Positions 163 through 34,060 of a DNA stretch of 34,279 nt are shown here, piece by piece. The position numbers and the translations under genes are program-made. The stretch comes from Candidatus Poribacteria bacterium (lineage in GTDB: Bacteria; Poribacteria; WGA-4E; PCPOR2b): assembly GCA_022822785.1 (NCBI GenBank), contig JAJEAL010000050.1, positions 1 through 34,279 of the forward strand, given 5' to 3'. Below the pieces are notes generated by a model. That model saw only the letters and a list, made by a program, of their open reading frames with translations. It did not search any database and had not been told where the DNA came from. Numbering within the stretch: position 1 is the first letter of the stretch; each line of letters begins with the position of its first letter.

Positions 163-237
163 TAACGATAAATCACAATTCGTAAATTCAGATTTTACAT
201 TTTTATTCAGGTAAACATTTATGCGGAGGTGTTTCGC

Positions 238-3200
238 GTGGCAACCCTCAACCTCAAATCAACTCACAAAATTATTAAGAACTACTACGACGAGTTGAAT
301 CGGTTTGATCGACTCGGCAAAACGCATGAGGGGGCCGTGCGTTCAGCGTTCCAATCCCTCCTCCAAGGTTGTGCTCGGAAGTTTGATTGGACGCTCATCC
401 CTGAACATGCAATGACCGGCCGTCGAAAAAAGCGGGTTGTCGTTGACGGTGCACTAATTGACAGTTTCCAACTGCCCCACGGCTACTGGGAGGCGAAGGA
501 CATCCACGACGACCTACCAGCCGAGGTACTCCGCAAGTTTGAAAGAGGCTACCCCCGCGACAACATCCTCTTCCAAACCCCACACCGCGCCATCCTGTGG
601 CAGAACAATCAGCAGACACTTGATGCCGACCTGACCGACCCGACGCAGCTGATACATACCCTTGAAATCTTCTTTTCTCACCGTCCGCAAGAGTACGCCG
701 AATGGGAAGAAGCAGTATCACAATTCAAAGACAGAGTGCCCGCACTTGGGAACGGCTTGGCAGAACTGATTGAGAAAGAACGGGGAGCGAATCGGGAGTT
801 TACCGCCGCCTTTGCCGCCTTCCATGAGAAATGCCGTCAATCAATTAACCCCAATCTCTCCGAAGCCGCTGTTGAGGAGATGTTGATTCAACACCTGTTG
901 ACCGAGCGAATCTTCCGAACCGTCTTTAGCAACCCCGACTTTGTTCATCGCAATATCATCGCCCGTGAAATTGAAACCGTCATCACTGCACTGATGTTTC
1001 ACGCCTTCAATCGCGATGAGTTTCTTAAAAGCCTTGATCCTTTCTATGTAGCGATTGAACGCACCGCTGCGACTATGGACGACTTCTCCCAAAAACAGGG
1101 GTTCCTCAACACGGTCTACGAGCAATTTTTTCAGGGTTTTTCGGTAGAGGTCGCCGATACGCACGGGATTGTCTACACACCGCAGCCGATTGTCGATTTC
1201 ATGGTGAAAAGCGTTGAGGAGATTCTGGGAACCGAATTTGACCGCTCACTCTCCGATGCCGGCGTTCACATCATCGACCCATTTGTAGGGACCGGCAATT
1301 TCATCGTCCGGACAATGCGCGAGATCCGCCCAACCGCGCTTGAGGATAAGTATCAGTCCGAGTTCCACTGCAACGAGGTGATGCTGTTGCCGTACTACAT
1401 CGCGTCGATGAACATTGAACATGAATTTTACGAGGCAACAGGGGACTATCAGCCGTTTGAAGGTATCTGCCTCGTCGATACGTTTGACCTTGCGGAAGAC
1501 CGGCAGCTACCGCTGTTTGCCCCTGACAATACCCGCCGCGTTGAGGAGCAGAAGGAGACGCCAATGTTTGTGGTCATCGGCAATCCACCTTATGATGCGA
1601 AACAGGTCAACGAGAACGATAACAACAGAAAACGGAAATATCCAACAATGGATATGCGGGTTAAGGAGACCTATTCAGAAGACTCCACAGCAAGAAATAA
1701 AAATCAACTCTCCGATCCGTATGTGAAGGCGATTCGGTGGGCATCTGACCGGATAGGAGAGGAAGGGGTTATCGCGTTTGTAACGAATAACAGCTTTCTT
1801 GACGGTGTGGCGTTTGATGGGATGCGGAAACACCTTGAAAAGAACTTTACCAAAATTTATCACATTGACCTCAAAGGCAATGCCCGAACCTCTGGTGAAC
1901 GCCGACGCAAAGAGGGTGGAAATATCTTTGATGACCAGATCCGTGTGGGGATTGGAATCAGTTTCTTCATCAGGAAAGTAGGAACGGAATCTAAAGGGGC
2001 TGAAGTTTGGATTTATTCCATTGAAGATTATCTTAAAGCTCGTGACAAGCAGGAAACTTTAACCCGATTCAGTGCCTATACAAACGTCCCGATGAAGCAA
2101 GCTACTATTGATGCAGAACATACATGGTTGACAGAAGGGCTCCACGCCGAGTTCGAGACCTTTATCCCTATGGGAATGCAGGAAGCGAAGGGGGCAGAGG
2201 GTGAGGCAGTGGATGTGATTTTTAAGACTTATAGCCGCGGTGTCGTAACCTCCCGTGATGCGTGGGCTTATAACTTCACACGAAACACTCTCACTGAAAA
2301 CATGAGTGAGATGATTGATACCTACAACGAATGGGTATTCAAGTGGGAACATCGGAAGGATCGGGAGGCAAACGTTGATGAGCTTATAGTTTATGATGAC
2401 ATGCACATCAGTTGGAGTCGTGACTTAAAATTGGACTTGGAACGAAGCAGGACTGCCGAATACTCTGAAGGCAAGGTAAGAAATTCTCTTTATCGTCCCT
2501 TCACCAAATCTAATCTGTTCTTTGATCGCGTTATGAACGAGGAAGTTTATGTTTTCCCGTCTATCTTCCCCATACCTGAGACAGAAGCGGAAAATCGCGT
2601 AATTTGTGTGAGTGGACTCGGAAGTAAAAAGCCTTTTCACATCTTGACGGTAGGAATGGTTCCCGATCTTCAAATACTTGAAAATACCCAATGCTTTCCC
2701 TTCTACATCTACGATGAGGATGGCACAAACCGTCGGGAGAACATCACCGATTGGGCGTTAGCACAATTCCGGGCACATTACCGAGACGAGACCATCGGCA
2801 AATGGGATATTTTCCACTATGTCTACGCGCTCCTACATCACCCCGATTATCGGGAGCGGTATGCAGCCAACCTCAAGCGGGACCTGCCGCATATTCCGTT
2901 TGGGTCCGATTTTTGGGGGTTTGTCCAAGCGGGGGGACGGTTGGGGGAAATTCACATCAACTACGAGGAGATGCCCGAGTATCAACTTGCATTCATCGAA
3001 AACCGTGAAGTGCCAATCAATTGGCGTGTGGAGAAGATGAAGCTATCCAAAGACAAGACGCAGTTGGCCTACAACGATTTCCTGACGTTAGAGGGGATAC
3101 CCGCAAAGGTGTTTGACTATCGGCTTGGGAATCGGGCAGCGTTGGAATGGGTGATCGACCAGTATCGCGTCAAGACGGACAAACGCAGCGGCATCGTCAA

Positions 3201-3315
3201 CGACCCGAACCGCCCAGACGACCCACGGTACATCGTCAAACTGATTGGGAAGGTGATTACGGTTAGCTTGGAGACGGTGGAGATTGTGGAAGGATTGCCT
3301 GCGTTAGAAATCTGA
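238..3315 (+). CDS. Single-chain restriction-modification enzyme (type ISP/IIG-like, no helicase)
   Basis: A 1025-residue protein predicted to bind DNA, methylate adenine N6 and cut. The N-terminal ~130 residues look like a PD-(D/E)xK nuclease: VDGAL near residue 69 and an E-A-K at 85-87 in GYWEAKD. A helical coupler region like that of type ISP enzymes follows (~140-330), then the methyltransferase with motif I DPFVGTGNF (from ~347) and motif IV NPPY (from ~449), and a long C-terminal part likely to be target recognition. Type ISP enzymes such as LlaBIII carry a RecA-like helicase between nuclease and methylase; no Walker A motif is visible here and the chain is much shorter, so it resembles a type IIG layout. 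GTG 238 is preferred over GTG 229 because GGAGG (225-229) then sits about 8 nt upstream. No specificity or helicase partner is next to it. Confidence 0.85.
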   Translation: MATLNLKSTHKIIKNYYDELNRFDRLGKTHEGAVRSAFQSLLQGCARKFDWTLIPEHAMTGRRKKRVVVDGALIDSFQLPHGYWEAKDIHDDLPAEVLRKFERGYPRDNILFQTPHRAILWQNNQQTLDADLTDPTQLIHTLEIFFSHRPQEYAEWEEAVSQFKDRVPALGNGLAELIEKERGANREFTAAFAAFHEKCRQSINPNLSEAAVEEMLIQHLLTERIFRTVFSNPDFVHRNIIAREIETVITALMFHAFNRDEFLKSLDPFYVAIERTAATMDDFSQKQGFLNTVYEQFFQGFSVEVADTHGIVYTPQPIVDFMVKSVEEILGTEFDRSLSDAGVHIIDPFVGTGNFIVRTMREIRPTALEDKYQSEFHCNEVMLLPYYIASMNIEHEFYEATGDYQPFEGICLVDTFDLAEDRQLPLFAPDNTRRVEEQKETPMFVVIGNPPYDAKQVNENDNNRKRKYPTMDMRVKETYSEDSTARNKNQLSDPYVKAIRWASDRIGEEGVIAFVTNNSFLDGVAFDGMRKHLEKNFTKIYHIDLKGNARTSGERRRKEGGNIFDDQIRVGIGISFFIRKVGTESKGAEVWIYSIEDYLKARDKQETLTRFSAYTNVPMKQATIDAEHTWLTEGLHAEFETFIPMGMQEAKGAEGEAVDVIFKTYSRGVVTSRDAWAYNFTRNTLTENMSEMIDTYNEWVFKWEHRKDREANVDELIVYDDMHISWSRDLKLDLERSRTAEYSEGKVRNSLYRPFTKSNLFFDRVMNEEVYVFPSIFPIPETEAENRVICVSGLGSKKPFHILTVGMVPDLQILENTQCFPFYIYDEDGTNRRENITDWALAQFRAHYRDETIGKWDIFHYVYALLHHPDYRERYAANLKRDLPHIPFGSDFWGFVQAGGRLGEIHINYEEMPEYQLAFIENREVPINWRVEKMKLSKDKTQLAYNDFLTLEGIPAKVFDYRLGNRAALEWVIDQYRVKTDKRSGIVNDPNRPDDPRYIVKLIGKVITVSLETVEIVEGLPALEI

Positions 3316-13015: not shown

Positions 13016-14299
13016 TTAGCGCTGCACGTGTTGGACGCTGTGATTGCGACAATCAAACTGTCCGCCGTAATGGACTTCGTAGATGTACTCGTAAACTGCT
13101 TCTGATACACGCCGCAACGTGTTAGATCGGCGTCCCACCCACGACCCAAACGCCTCGAAGCGGTTACGGTTATTGGTTTTAGTCCGATCTTCAATCATGC
13201 CGGTAAAGATATACGCCCGCTGTTTCCCCTCTGAATCGGTAATCGCCAAGACACCACTGTCGCCGACCAAGCCGTAGACCGTTCCCGTCTTGTGATATAC
13301 ACGGACATTTGACGGCAGACAGGTTCTATCGTGCATGCGATCGCCGTTTGGCAATCCGAAATAGTATTTCATTTTGTTTGAATACGGCAGGTTCCCAAGC
13401 CAGAGTTGGTTGTAGAACCTATTCATGTCATGGGCGGATGTCATGTTTCGGTAAGTTCTGCCGCCGGGGGGAATATATTCAACGATGCGGGTATTCTTGA
13501 AATACGGGTAGTTCCATTTTAAAATTCGAGCCACACCGCTGGGACCGCCGAGCAATTTTATGAAGTAGTTCGTTGATGTATTGGCACTTCTCTGGATCAT
13601 CCGGCGGAGCTGCTGACGATTCCTAGTGGTATGTTCGAGCCGTTTGTATTTCACCTCATGGAAATAGGCGAGCATAACAAAGTTCTTGATTAGCGAAGCC
13701 GCCATCATTGACCGATCTTCGTTGATTGAAACCACTTTTTTCTGCTTCGTCACATCGTGAATAACGAAGCTCGTCCGATCTGTGCTTGCAAGTACCCCTC
13801 TGCTCCGTAATGTCTTGATATATTGATCGATGCTCTCCTCAAGGTCGGAATCCGGGGTGATAGTCAACGGTTGAGGTTGGGATTGGCGGGGTTGAGGTCG
13901 TCGAGTCTGAGGCCGCTGGGACTGCGTTGTGTGCTTGATTGGTCTAGATGAGTAGTCCTGACTCGGCATTGCGTAGGCAGCGTTAGGTCCCTTTGCTTTC
14001 GTTATACCTGCTCGATGCAGTAGCTTCGCATGATTTGCCGCTACCTGACGGGTTGTCTGATAATCGCCATCCCAATCATAGATGACGCCATATCTCTTCC
14101 CGTTCCGTACGACCTTAATCTGCTTTGCGATATCCGGACCTAATACCCGCTTAACTTTGTTGGCATATGCTTCGGCGCTCTGGTTCTTACTTCCCCAGAA
14201 ATAGCTGACATCGTAAGTTCCCGATGCGAATGACGCAGACACGGACACCAGAAAACTGGTTAAAATGTAAGTAAATAGAAGCGTATGTATTTTCGTCAT
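13016..14299 (-). CDS. Secreted protein: SPOR-like domain plus class A beta-lactamase fold
   Basis: 427 residues with a signal peptide (1-26, ending SFASG). Residues ~27-100 look like a SPOR domain, a module that binds glycan strands of peptidoglycan; a Q/R/P-rich linker (~113-145) leads to a serine beta-lactamase fold. The catalytic motifs are S202-L-I-K205, S238-A-N240 and K337-T-G339. I cannot find the ExxxN of the omega loop that class A beta-lactamases need for deacylation, so a peptidoglycan-binding DD-peptidase-like or acyl-enzyme-trapping protein is as likely as antibiotic hydrolysis. It stands alone on the minus strand. Confidence 0.75.
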   Translation of the reverse strand: MTKIHTLLFTYILTSFLVSVSASFASGTYDVSYFWGSKNQSAEAYANKVKRVLGPDIAKQIKVVRNGKRYGVIYDWDGDYQTTRQVAANHAKLLHRAGITKAKGPNAAYAMPSQDYSSRPIKHTTQSQRPQTRRPQPRQSQPQPLTITPDSDLEESIDQYIKTLRSRGVLASTDRTSFVIHDVTKQKKVVSINEDRSMMAASLIKNFVMLAYFHEVKYKRLEHTTRNRQQLRRMIQRSANTSTNYFIKLLGGPSGVARILKWNYPYFKNTRIVEYIPPGGRTYRNMTSAHDMNRFYNQLWLGNLPYSNKMKYYFGLPNGDRMHDRTCLPSNVRVYHKTGTVYGLVGDSGVLAITDSEGKQRAYIFTGMIEDRTKTNNRNRFEAFGSWVGRRSNTLRRVSEAVYEYIYEVHYGGQFDCRNHSVQHVQR

Positions 14300-30005: not shown

Positions 30006-31016
30006 ATGAGACCAAGGATATTACTGTTCGTTGCTTTTACCTTCTTTTTTACCGTGATGGTGATGCCGTTTGAATCCAATGGGCACAGCGTCGACATTTA
30101 TGTTGTACAGATGAGTGACGAGAACCACCTTGTCCGTCGCGCTGCTGCCGAGCAGTTGGTTCGAGTGAGTAACGACCATGCAGACGCTGTGCTGCCACTA
30201 TTAGTAACGGCATTACAGGACGAGGATAAACATGTTCGTCGCTACACAGCGATGGCGTTAGGCACAATGGGTAGCCCCGTCGTGGATGCCATCCCTGCGT
30301 TAATAGGAGCGCTCAAAGATGAAGATGCGACTGTCCGTTCCAAGATTGCTGAAATATTGGGACGGCATGGCAAAGATCGGGCACCGGAGGTCGTTCCCGC
30401 ACTGATAGCCGCTTTGACGGATGAAAATCTGTGGGTGCGTTCCAAGGTTGTAACGGCATTGGGTCGGCTTGGCGCAGCCGCTCACGAGGCCATCCCTGTG
30501 TTGATAACAGCCTTGCAGGACGATAAAAAAGGGGTTCGTCGTCGAGCCGCCGAAGCGCTCGGACGGATTGGTAAATCAGCGGCTGTCCCCGCGTTGATTG
30601 CGGCGTTGCAGGACCAGGATAAAGCGGTCCGTCGCTACGCTGCCAAGGCGTTAGGTCGAATCGGTAAACCGGCGCATGCAGCGGTGCCGGCGTTGACGCA
30701 ACGACTCAGCGATGCAGATGAGAGCGTTGCGCTGTCCGCTGCCGTCGCATTGGGTCGAATCGGTGAACCGGTTGGGAGTGCACTCTCAATGTTGATAGAC
30801 GCGCTGCAAACGGAGGAGTGGCATATCCGTGAAGAGGCAGTCGCGGCACTGGGTGGCGTGGCGACTTCTGCTCAAGGTATCGTGCCTGTGTTGGTGGAGG
30901 CGTTGGACGACGAGCATAAGGGTGTTCGCTACCATGCACTTGAAGCGTTAATGGGGATAGACACGCCAGAGGCGATAAAAGCGGTTGAGGAGTTCAGGAA
31001 AAACAGTGAGCAGTAA
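30006..31016 (+). CDS. Secreted HEAT-repeat (PBS lyase-like) protein
   Basis: 336 residues. A signal peptide covers about 1-27; then eight or nine helical repeats of ~31-35 residues run to the end. The pattern is VPALIAALxDxDxxVRxxAAxALGRIG (seen as separate short runs such as AKALGRIGKPA and VVTALGRLGAA). Such arrays bind proteins or tether cofactors; being exported, this one probably acts in a periplasmic or surface assembly. Repeats are close to each other in sequence, implying recent internal duplication. AAGGAAA lies before the ATG. The leader contains the family B element. Confidence 0.82.
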   Translation: MRPRILLFVAFTFFFTVMVMPFESNGHSVDIYVVQMSDENHLVRRAAAEQLVRVSNDHADAVLPLLVTALQDEDKHVRRYTAMALGTMGSPVVDAIPALIGALKDEDATVRSKIAEILGRHGKDRAPEVVPALIAALTDENLWVRSKVVTALGRLGAAAHEAIPVLITALQDDKKGVRRRAAEALGRIGKSAAVPALIAALQDQDKAVRRYAAKALGRIGKPAHAAVPALTQRLSDADESVALSAAVALGRIGEPVGSALSMLIDALQTEEWHIREEAVAALGGVATSAQGIVPVLVEALDDEHKGVRYHALEALMGIDTPEAIKAVEEFRKNSEQ

Positions 31017-31032: not shown

Positions 31033-31140
31033 GCAAGGTTTTTTCTTGACAGACAGTTAAATGTTTGATAGGCTAGAACCATCTTTGTTCCGTAATTGAC
31101 AGTTTTTGGTCACAGTTGAAACTTGAAAGGAGAATTGGTC

Positions 31141-31947
31141 ATGTATAGAGCTAACAATTCATCCATACAGTTCCTGTTTGTGGCGATAGCGGTATTGGTG
31201 GGTGCTGCGCTCATCGTACCGAGTCTGGTTCAGGCGGGCGCAGTCCTGTTTGAGGACGACTTTAGAGTCGGAAAGGTGGATGGGACCGGCAAATGGCATA
31301 CCGCTCTCGGAAAATGGGCGATTCAGGGCGGGGCACTGGTAAAGCAGGGCGCCGATGTGGGGCTTATCCTAGTCACTGATGACCACTGGGATGACGAATG
31401 GAATGACTACTGGTTCCTTTCAACCATTACACTCACAGGTGGGCAGGAACTTGGTGTCTTCTGGCGTTTTTTTACTAAGGGTGAGCAAGGGGGCGCGTTT
31501 ACCAACCCAGGTAATCTGCCCAAACGCTTGCAGGGCAATGAAAGCCGCCATGTGATATATTGGGCGTTGAACAGAGAAGGGAAAACATCTATTGTCCAGC
31601 GCGATATAAAGACTGTTTCCCAACCCTTTGCCAAAACCGAGACAAAAACAACACTTTCAACCAATAAAGAGTACTGGGTCAAGGTCGAAAATCACCCGAA
31701 AGGTTACCGTCTTTACCTGACCGATAACGGAGCGTTGGCAAAGTCAGGGGAGTACGGCGCTGCCGTTGTTGATGTGAAAGATATCAATATTCAGGGGCGA
31801 GGTCGAATCGGTTTTGGATCTGTGGACAGTCGGTTTAAGGTAGACGACGTTTATGTTGTTGAGCCCGACACCAATCCTTTTTCCGTTGAAGCACAAGGCA
31901 AATTGGCAACTACTTGGGGCATGTTGAAATCGAGGCGAAATAAGTAG
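31141..31947 (+). CDS. Secreted LamG/DUF1080-like protein with C-terminal TTWG motif (1 of 3)
   Basis: 268 residues. Signal peptide 1-32 (cleavage near VQA-GA). The body starts LFEDDF and runs as a concanavalin-like beta-sandwich (GKWAIQGGALVKQG, DDHWDDEWNDYWF, LGVFWRFF, YRLYLTDNG, GRIGFGS, KVDDVYV), the form of laminin-G or 3-keto-disaccharide-hydrolase-like domains; no catalytic residue can be assigned, so carbohydrate binding is likely. It closes with GKLATTWGMLK followed by five residues. ATG 31141 has AAAGGAG 6 nt upstream. The protein at 33314 is a paralogue. Confidence 0.72.
   Translation: MYRANNSSIQFLFVAIAVLVGAALIVPSLVQAGAVLFEDDFRVGKVDGTGKWHTALGKWAIQGGALVKQGADVGLILVTDDHWDDEWNDYWFLSTITLTGGQELGVFWRFFTKGEQGGAFTNPGNLPKRLQGNESRHVIYWALNREGKTSIVQRDIKTVSQPFAKTETKTTLSTNKEYWVKVENHPKGYRLYLTDNGALAKSGEYGAAVVDVKDINIQGRGRIGFGSVDSRFKVDDVYVVEPDTNPFSVEAQGKLATTWGMLKSRRNK
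31900..31929 (+). other. C-terminal motif KLATTWGMLK
   Basis: Residues 254-263 of 268. Same motif as at 33145-33174 and 34019-34048. Confidence 0.75.
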
Positions 31948-32083
31948 CTCTGTTGCCCTTACGTCCAACCGAAAGTGAGCGGGAGAACTGATTAAGGAGG
32001 AGTAGCTAGGCTTTCTGCCTTGTGCAGAGAGCGCTCAAACAAGAGGGGGTGGTGCCCGCTTTTTGGAAGCTATAGCGTCCTAA

Positions 32084-32150
32084 CCAATCTTTGAGATGTT
32101 TGAAAGTAAAGAACATAGACACCGTTCTTATAGTATCTCCGAAAGATTGG
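32084..32150 (+). ncRNA. Structured leader before the CBM9-like gene
   Basis: A nested fold: the arms CCAATCTTT-GAGAT (32084-32097) and ATCTC-CG-AAAGATTGG (32135-32150) give 14 base pairs with a 2-nt bulge, and inside them AAGAAC (32109-32114) pairs with GTTCTT (32124-32129) around a 9-nt loop. It lies about 75 nt before the start codon in a 279-bp gap and has no U-run, so a cis-regulatory or stabilising RNA is more likely than a terminator. No known riboswitch is recognised. Confidence 0.45.
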
Positions 32151-32226
32151 GTAACTGATTACGTTTTAATGCCGTAACAATGGGAGTATGTCAAATCAAC
32201 CGATCTAAATAAAGGAGGAAATGAAG

Positions 32227-33192
32227 ATGTTTAAGTATGTTATTACCCTCACAGTGGTGTTAGCCATGTTGTTTAGTGCATCATTGGTGTTTGCACATTC
32301 GCGGGGGATCGCGAACGCGTTCTTCGTAGATGTTCCTCCCACGATTGACGGAGACCCCAACGACCCGCAGTGGCAGGAGCGCTGGGCAGAGTTTCAAGCA
32401 GGGGACAACGCCACAGGTCCAAGTATGCACATGAAGCCTGAGACGACACCGGATTGGTTTATCTTCCCTGAAACCTCGCCTAACCGTATCAGCCGAGGTA
32501 ACTTCGATAGTGACGAGGACTGGAGCTCTGAATTTGGGCTGCTCTTCGACGAAGAATGGCTTTACTATGTCATGGTTGTTACGGACGATGTCGTCTTCAC
32601 AGATCTCAATGACGATGTTGTTGCACAACAGGGCGGGCCCAATGCAGGCAACGATGAAATGTGGTGGATGTTCGACTTTGAACACGACGCGCCGAAGATT
32701 CCCAAGGGAGATGACGACCGGGACTTAGCTGCAGATCCCGACTGCTTCTATGCTGATGGAGATATATACCTTCGGTACAAAGTGTTTACCATAAATGATA
32801 CCACGCCCGCCTGCTGGCTCAGTCTCGGTACGAATCCTCAGGGAGGGACCTTTTTTAATCAAGAGTGTACAGAAAACGTCGTGACTAAGGTGACCAATGA
32901 CGGTTACGTCTATGAAGGGAAAATTACCTTCGAGGAAATGTACGATGGGTCAAAGAAACCCAATCTCCTGCCGCCGGTTGATGGAGTCGTCTGGGGTTTT
33001 GATAGCACAATCGACGATCACGATGTAAAGGGGTTTGGGAGAGAGGGCGCTATTTCTTGGGCATCGTCCTTTGAAAACGACAACATGGTTTGCGGTTTCG
33101 GGGACCTCCTCTTTGTTGGCACCCGTGCTGTTACACCACAGGATAAGCTCCCCACAACGTGGGGAAATCTTAAGCAGGAAGCAATGGAATAA
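32227..33192 (+). CDS. Secreted CBM9-like protein with C-terminal TTWG motif (2 of 3)
   Basis: 321 residues. Signal peptide 1-23 (VFA-HS). The mature part has the layout of carbohydrate-binding module 9-type domains: PTIDGDPNDPQWQ near the start, EEWLYYVMVVTDD, NDEMWWMFDFEHD, the YVYEGKITFEEM strand and a last strand with GREGAISWA. CBM9 domains bind reducing ends of sugars; the binding residues cannot be fixed by eye. The tail is DKLPTTWGNLK plus five residues. ATG 32227 is preferred to ATG 32221 because GGAGG (32214-32218) is 8 nt before it and only 2 nt before the other. Confidence 0.72.
   Translation: MFKYVITLTVVLAMLFSASLVFAHSRGIANAFFVDVPPTIDGDPNDPQWQERWAEFQAGDNATGPSMHMKPETTPDWFIFPETSPNRISRGNFDSDEDWSSEFGLLFDEEWLYYVMVVTDDVVFTDLNDDVVAQQGGPNAGNDEMWWMFDFEHDAPKIPKGDDDRDLAADPDCFYADGDIYLRYKVFTINDTTPACWLSLGTNPQGGTFFNQECTENVVTKVTNDGYVYEGKITFEEMYDGSKKPNLLPPVDGVVWGFDSTIDDHDVKGFGREGAISWASSFENDNMVCGFGDLLFVGTRAVTPQDKLPTTWGNLKQEAME
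33145..33174 (+). other. C-terminal motif KLPTTWGNLK
   Basis: Residues 307-316 of 321; second copy of the shared tail. Confidence 0.75.
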
Positions 33193-33213
33193 AAACCGAG
33201 TCCATCTTCTGAA

Positions 33214-33245
33214 GCGTGATATGGTGTAATAGTGGCGTATCACGC
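33214..33245. repeat. Inverted repeat GCGTGATA / TATCACGC
   Basis: An 8-bp perfect inverted repeat with a 16-nt spacer 20 bp after the CBM9-like gene, just before the terminator. It could be an operator or add to the 3'-end structure. Confidence 0.45.
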
Positions 33246-33262
33246 GCTGCATTTCAACCTAC

Positions 33263-33291
33263 AGGGACGTTCTTTGGGACGTCCCTTTTTT
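33263..33291 (+). terminator. Rho-independent terminator
   Basis: AGGGACGT (33263-33270), loop TCTTTGGG, ACGTCCCT (33279-33286), then a run of six T counting the last stem base. It ends the CBM9-like transcript 22 bp before the next start codon. Confidence 0.85.
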
Positions 33292-33313
33292 CTAACAATA
33301 CAAGGGGGAAGTC

Positions 33314-34060
33314 ATGAAGGCATTTTTATCGGCTGTATTCGCGCTGGCTATAATGCTTACCGTCGCATGTCTACCTACCAGCGCTCAAATCTTGTTTGAG
33401 GATAGTTTCTTAAAGGGGGCCGCCTCTGAAAAGAAGTGGATGTTCTTGCAGGGCGATTGGAAAGTACAGGGGGGTGCCCTCAAACAGAATGCTCAAGATG
33501 CCGAAACCATCGCTGTTATTGCGGATGATTTTTGGGATGATACGTGGAACGAGTACATCTTTGAAGTAACCGCCAGACGGTTTAGAGGGCAACACGGAGT
33601 TCGCATTTTCTGGCGAATTAATGACGATATGCAAGCCGCTCCCGGCAGAGGGGCGGGCTTTTTACTCGCCAATCCAGTTGAAGGGCGTCTTGCCGACGAA
33701 AAACGTCGTATTAAGTTCTGGTGGGAAATTGGTTGGGAAAACAAGGAGTCGTTTGTCATTGCAGACGTCAGGGGAGTCGCTCAAAGGAAAAAAGGGACCG
33801 AAACAAAACACAAGCTGGGAAATGAGCCGGTCCAAGTCAAGATTGTCAATCAAGGCAATGTCATGACGTTGTTTCTTGATGGTGAAGTGGTCTTTGACGG
33901 GAAGGACCTAAACGGGAACAACGGAGGGCGGGTTGGCGTGGGCACCATAGGTACGACCGCTGAATTTGACAATGTCTTTGTAACAGGGCTCAAAGGACGG
34001 TCTGTTGAGCCGGGCGATAAGCTAACCACCACCTGGGGCTCGCTAAAAGCCCTTCGGTAA
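33314..34060 (+). CDS. Secreted LamG/DUF1080-like protein with C-terminal TTWG motif (3 of 3)
   Basis: 248 residues, paralogue of 31141-31947. Signal peptide about 1-24 (ending TSAQ). The body again opens LFEDSF and contains GDWKVQGGALKQN, DDFWDDTWNEYIF, HGVRIFWRI, VMTLFLDGEVVF and GRVGVGTIGTTAEFDNVFV, a beta-sandwich typical of laminin-G-like domains. It ends DKLTTTWGSLKALR. It has its own start after the terminator, so it is likely transcribed separately. GGGGGAAG precedes the ATG. Function presumed to be carbohydrate binding at the cell surface. Confidence 0.72.
   Translation: MKAFLSAVFALAIMLTVACLPTSAQILFEDSFLKGAASEKKWMFLQGDWKVQGGALKQNAQDAETIAVIADDFWDDTWNEYIFEVTARRFRGQHGVRIFWRINDDMQAAPGRGAGFLLANPVEGRLADEKRRIKFWWEIGWENKESFVIADVRGVAQRKKGTETKHKLGNEPVQVKIVNQGNVMTLFLDGEVVFDGKDLNGNNGGRVGVGTIGTTAEFDNVFVTGLKGRSVEPGDKLTTTWGSLKALR
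34019..34048 (+). other. C-terminal motif KLTTTWGSLK
   Basis: Residues 236-245 of 248; third copy of the shared tail. Confidence 0.75.

Follow-up and report, generated by a model that had tools for sequence, protein, structure and literature searches.

A short tag at the C-terminus of secreted Poribacteria proteins, possibly linked to a type IX-like secretion pathway

Introduction

Proteins of Candidatus Poribacteria that differ widely in fold, and nearly all of which begin with a signal-peptide-like stretch, end a few residues before the stop codon in a common motif of about 17 residues, built around KLxTTWGxLK. What is known of its conservation, position and carriers, all of it drawn from sequence, argues strongly that this motif functions as a sorting tag; the mechanism by which it would do so is a much more evenly balanced matter. 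The best explanation we can offer, which we would put at about an even chance, is that it serves for sorting or retention, is specific to this lineage and is tied to a pathway resembling the type IX secretion system (T9SS). The broader proposition, that this hydrophilic tag represents a new class of signal for export or surface anchoring, borne by tens of proteins per genome and read by a divergent T9SS as yet undescribed in this phylum, could equally well prove right or wrong. The tag is widespread and apparently undescribed; a literature search with the variants KLTTTWG, KLATTWG and KLSTTWG found no report of it, within the incomplete coverage of that search.

Three tagged proteins in one contig

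The stretch of DNA analysed (hereafter the window) is the forward strand of contig JAJEAL010000050.1 from the Candidatus Poribacteria assembly GCA_022822785.1, and is 34,279 nt in length. An initial annotation of this window had proposed that three of its proteins share the tail [SA]V[ET]xx[GD]KLxTTWGxLK at three to five residues from the stop, and this can be read directly from the translated open reading frames (Table 1): the proteins starting at 31123/31141, 32221 and 33314 finish in SVEAQGKLATTWGMLK-SRRNK, AVTPQDKLPTTWGNLK-QEAME and SVEPGDKLTTTWGSLK-ALR, each followed at once by the stop codon, and their longer C-terminal ends are, in gene order, SVEAQGKLATTWGMLKSRRNK, AVTPQDKLPTTWGNLKQEAME and SVEPGDKLTTTWGSLKALR. 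The N-terminal signal peptides that had been ascribed to all three are borne out by a signal-peptide-like stretch in each, as is the suggestion that two folds share the one tail. The 31123 and 33314 proteins are homologous (33% identity, E ~1e-31), and the AF2 model of the latter (mean pLDDT 83.7) has a ConA-like jelly-roll fold for which the nearest match is CBM66 (Foldseek, E 1.7e-9); the 31123 protein is predicted, by its homology to this model, to be a jelly roll likewise. The 32221 protein is CBM9-like, scoring 31.3 bits against Pfam CBM9_1 (cut-off 23.4). In the model of the 33314 protein the fold ends at residue 225, while the tail, residues 229-248, has a pLDDT of ~44.

The gene directly upstream of these three (window 30006-31016, + strand) encodes a HEAT-repeat protein that has a signal-peptide-like start and does not carry the tag. 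Elsewhere in the window are genes for a Type ISP restriction-modification enzyme (229-3315, + strand; Type_ISP_C, 345 bits) and a Beta-lactamase2-family protein (13016-14299, - strand; 66.8 bits).

Table 1 Features of the window and of related loci. Positions are those of the window unless a locus is named.
Feature	Position	Strand	Basis and remarks
Jelly-roll (LamG/CBM66-like) secreted protein	31123..31947	+	ORF; TTG start at 31123 or ATG at 31141; tag-ended
CBM9-like secreted protein	32221..33192	+	ORF; CBM9_1 match; tag-ended
Jelly-roll (CBM66/3-keto-disaccharide-hydrolase-like) secreted protein	33314..34060	+	ORF; AF2 model, Foldseek; tag-ended
C-terminal tag VEAQGKLATTWGMLK (V-to-K core)	31885..31929	+	Stop 5 residues on; HMM E 1.0e-11
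C-terminal tag VTPQDKLPTTWGNLK (V-to-K core)	33130..33174	+	Stop 5 residues on; HMM E 1.1e-9
C-terminal tag VEPGDKLTTTWGSLK (V-to-K core)	34004..34048	+	Stop 3 residues on; HMM E 4.7e-10
SprA-like translocon, 2151 aa	L214:11266-17721 (G000:C109:66266-72721)		SprA_N and TIGR04189 matches
porU-like gene (2097 aa, own CTD), then directly PorV-family gene	L297:4748-12162 (G000:C41)
Second PorU-like ORF	L298:8635-14973 (G000:C129)
Tandem array of tagged paralogues (LamG-type, contig C8)	L300:7045-14738		Nearly all tag-ended
Tandem array of tagged paralogues (PD40, contig C145)	L301:8925-14853		Nearly all tag-ended

Anatomy of the tag and the proteins that carry it

An alignment of 205 tails gives the consensus [LT][APS]V[ED][PA]x[GD]KL[TAS]TTW[GA]x[LIV]K, followed by 1-12 further residues (mode 3) before the stop. 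The final Lys is near-invariant, V at -10 is conserved in 96% of the tails, and -8 and -6 are occupied by P or A and by G or D; since these last three positions were absent from the search patterns, their conservation is independent of the way in which the tails were found. Agreement between copies in the codons used is about what codon usage alone would lead one to expect, so the likeness is kept at the protein level, as had been suggested initially for the three window genes, and spread as a DNA element or by gene conversion is ruled out.

Once both ends are trimmed, the tagged proteins fall into 28 groups unrelated by BLAST, and their Pfam folds include Laminin_G_3, 3keto-disac_hyd, Kelch, PD40/WD40, CBM9 and F5/8 type C, among others. 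The initial annotation had recognised that its proposal would fall if the tail were simply the last strand of one homologous domain or were limited to one gene family. The 28 groups dispose of the second possibility; the first is ruled out by the AF2 model, in which the tail lies outside the fold, together with a family alignment: there the linker leading up to the tag is of variable length, and conservation is higher in the tag than in the domain.

A signal-peptide-like start was recognised, by a simple hydrophobicity criterion, in 165 of 183 complete tagged ORFs, as against 118 of 326 neighbouring control ORFs. We infer from these starts and from the model that tagged proteins leave the cytoplasm by way of Sec, and that the folded domain stops a few residues before the tag, which would hang free at the C-terminus. 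It is the Sec signal peptides, present on nearly all tagged proteins, that make it very improbable that the tail serves to load cargo into a cytosolic compartment such as an encapsulin or microcompartment, an idea to which one might be drawn by the shortness and C-terminal position of the tag and by the discussion of cell compartmentation in the Poribacteria single-cell genome paper (PMC3909097).

Distribution among genomes

The pattern L-x-T-T-W-[GA]-x-x-K finds six matches in the source genome and is present in 40/40 genomes of the relatives search, while a stricter DNA pattern finds 3,567 matches in 84 of 85 Poribacteria genomes (median 46 per genome, maximum 91); the one genome without a strict match, G048, still has 31 matches to a profile HMM. 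Reversed-pattern controls gave 0 matches both in the source genome and with the stricter pattern, which rules out a chance origin. The HMM, of 22 positions, has 48 matches up to E 10 in the source genome, and among the 30 of these that were listed nearly all are C-terminal; they include runs of LamG proteins and of PD40 propellers, on the contigs of the two tandem arrays in Table 1. Proteins with DUF6785/DUF6784 adjoin clusters of tagged proteins on two further contigs, C67 and C76 (L299:4990-6912 and L302:8729-10660). A search of the same organism and its relatives was the check originally envisaged; by patterns and HMMs, with reading of the source genome confined to the surroundings of matches, the tag recurs both within that genome and across almost the whole of the phylum sampled.

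Among the matches listed in named Poribacteria records, 116 of 117 lie no more than 12 residues from the stop, and the remaining one abuts a T9SS type A C-terminal domain (CTD). Matches listed from outside Poribacteria are either internal or in very short frames, apart from those on three contigs from odd bins. Those in Butyrivibrio, Bacillota, Lachnospiraceae, Prevotellaceae, Bacteroidaceae and a Saccharibacteria record are internal to their frames, those in Cyclobacteriaceae and Clostridia sit in very short frames, and all were rejected as true tags. The three contigs, labelled Pseudomonadota, Deltaproteobacteria and Thermoprotei (L063, L100, L142), do carry terminal tags, and are probably mis-binned or mislabelled Poribacteria-like sequence. 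Among the matches listed, then, the earlier surmise that the tag is specific to one lineage holds good, the lineage being Poribacteria.

Comparison with known sorting signals

The signals LPxTG, PEP-CTERM, IPTLxxWG-CTERM and GlyGly-CTERM each consist of a motif followed by a transmembrane helix and a basic end. They resemble the tag in being short, conserved C-terminal motifs found on many exported proteins; however, the tag has no helix, and the stop follows 1-12 residues after its final Lys. The CTDs of the T9SS can be compared as well. The type A CTD (TIGR04183 / PF18962) is likewise C-terminal and occurs on Sec-exported proteins of varied fold, but it is a folded Ig-like domain of ~70-90 residues with motifs A-E, whereas the tag has ~17 residues, is predicted to be disordered and shows no sequence resemblance to that domain; even taken as a tail of ~20 residues, with pLDDT ~44, it falls far short of the 70-100 residues looked for in an Ig-like CTD. 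Type B (TIGR04131) and type C CTDs are also C-terminal signals on unlike folds, type B having its own dedicated shuttle proteins, but they run to ~100 residues and their motifs are unrelated to the tag. No known sorting family was found by NCBIfam among the tagged proteins or their tails. The initial statement that the tail matches no known sorting signal therefore stands as regards the missing hydrophobic helix, basic cluster and NCBIfam match, but not as regards a link with type IX secretion, as the motif abuts type A CTDs and T9SS proteins are encoded in these genomes.

The tag and type A CTDs in tandem

At one locus (L071) the tag runs on as KLSTTWGKVKATEVFQNYPNPFNPETWIPY, which is the start of a type A CTD. 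More generally, W[GA]xxK is followed by N[FY]PNPFN at near-fixed spacing in 54 of 83 genomes (reversed control 0). Most such cases belong to one orthologous FG-GAP/ASPIC family, and the others are different proteins (e.g. in G007, G041, G042, G043 and G047). The poribacterial CTD passes TIGR04183 (30.4 bits in the source genome, and 33.3 bits; cut-off 23), among solved structures its model is matched best by P. gingivalis PorU (PDB), and it ends in TRKMLILK, which has no sequence resemblance to the tag. In the source genome, PD40 proteins on contigs C66 and C126 end in the propeller, a tag-like segment and a CTD, while PD40 paralogues on C145 end in the propeller and the tag, followed by the stop; the two sets align through the tag.

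This last alignment suggests that a CTD has been gained or lost exactly after the tag, and might be taken to mean that the tail is a relic of CTD loss, or else a conserved piece of a domain, with no function of its own. Such a reading is very unlikely. CTD remnants were found downstream of 0/194 tag stops, which rules out loss by recent frameshift, and the tail, which the AF2 model shows as disordered and outside the fold, is conserved more strongly than the domains to which it is attached and occurs on many different folds; ~46 copies per genome would not be expected of a relic.

A rather more serious possibility, although still an unlikely one, is that the tag is an anchor independent of any T9SS, a hydrophilic peptide binding a conserved receptor in the periplasm or cell wall, and that proteins with both tag and CTD are simple fusions. 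Most tag proteins have no CTD, and among the 60 CTD-model matches of the source genome most of those inspected have no tag before the CTD; moreover, few tagged proteins are lipoprotein-like (7/184) or have a second membrane-helix-like stretch (5/184), making some other means of retention plausible. On the other hand, tag and CTD adjoin at a nearly constant distance in several unrelated families, paralogues with and without a CTD align through the tag, and no receptor was found.

T9SS components encoded in Poribacteria

The single-cell study of 2014 did not find Por structural genes, although it did observe TIGR04183 domains in Poribacteria (PMC3909097). Contrary to that report, sequence matches indicate that a T9SS-like core of PorU, PorV family and SprA-like protein is encoded; no earlier account of it was found in a literature search of incomplete coverage. 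One PorU scores 436.5 bits against NF033707 (equivalog cut-off 420) and a second copy 407 bits, the motifs of the His/Cys dyad are kept (GHGG...SCYNG and GHGG...TCLNG), and C25 is found in 9/9 genomes. PorV-family proteins exceed the cut-off of NF033709 in 9/9 genomes (the source and eight relatives), with 14-21 PorV/PorQ-family matches in each. Several of these adjoin CTD matches (contigs C12, C35, C41, C83 and C131), and PorV-family genes so placed may possibly be dedicated shuttles. The SprA-like ORF scores 38 bits against SprA_N (Pfam cut-off 27) and 157.5 bits against TIGR04189, in five collinear stretches, the latter being below the cut-off of 200; similar matches occur in 40/40 genomes of the relatives search and in 11/12 outlying genomes, and a PDB profile search with the SprA-like alignment returned nothing meaningful. 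The motor protein GldM (TIGR03517) was not found in nine genomes, although divergence could mask a match. As T9SS parts were present in almost every genome searched, their co-occurrence with the tag is inseparable from their co-occurrence with CTDs.

The PorU and PorV-family proteins, over curated cut-offs and adjacent on C41, recall the PorU/PorV/PorQ/PorZ attachment complex of P. gingivalis. P. gingivalis PorU cleaves between T/E/D/N and G/A/S, and no conserved block of greater length is described upstream of the site (PMC10202324), whereas in Poribacteria a block of 17 residues is conserved.

Proposed route and its difficulties

For the T9SS substrates that are known, export is by Sec and passage across the outer membrane depends on the CTD; PorV carries them, and PorU cuts off the CTD (PMC10202324). 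For tagged proteins, the likeliest pathway would be a similar one, employing the SprA-like translocon, PorV-family shuttles and the PorU sortase. In the tandem proteins, a PorU-type cut at the junction of tag and CTD would make the tag the C-terminus of the mature protein, and tag-only proteins end in just this way from translation onwards. The exposed tag might then act as a retention or address element on proteins located at the surface, read by a component of the outer membrane or cell surface that would probably be a PorV-family or PorU-type factor.

The main difficulty is that the CTD required by known T9SS substrates is missing from tag-only proteins, so that it is not obvious how they would cross the outer membrane, and this keeps in play both the T9SS-independent anchor discussed above and the notion that the tag is itself the export signal. 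According to the latter, which we consider improbable to about the same degree, the tag alone would be a minimal translocation signal, of a further and very short T9SS class, recognised directly by SprA/PorV-like machinery that would thereby export proteins without CTDs. Its strictly C-terminal position, the near-invariant last Lys and its presence on tens of Sec-exported proteins per genome are in keeping with this, the numerous PorV-family matches in a genome leave room for several signals, and for export of GFP in P. gingivalis the final 22 residues of the HBP35 CTD are enough (PMC10202324). However, tandem proteins have the tag inside the chain with a full CTD after it, so that it would be redundant there, and its sequence is unlike the end of the poribacterial CTD. 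Also counting against a retention tag tied to a T9SS-like pathway, which nevertheless seems to us the best explanation, are the failure to find GldM, the SprA-like score below the TIGR04189 cut-off, the lack of a tag in most CTD proteins inspected in the source genome, and the concentration of tandem cases in one family.

Significance

If the explanation preferred here is true, the known C-terminal sorting signals would gain a short one that has no membrane helix, and it would provide a computable list of the surface or secreted proteome of Poribacteria, which are major sponge symbionts. It also bears on the puzzle left in 2014 of CTDs without Por genes (PMC3909097), as genes for PorU, PorV-family and SprA-like proteins are present.
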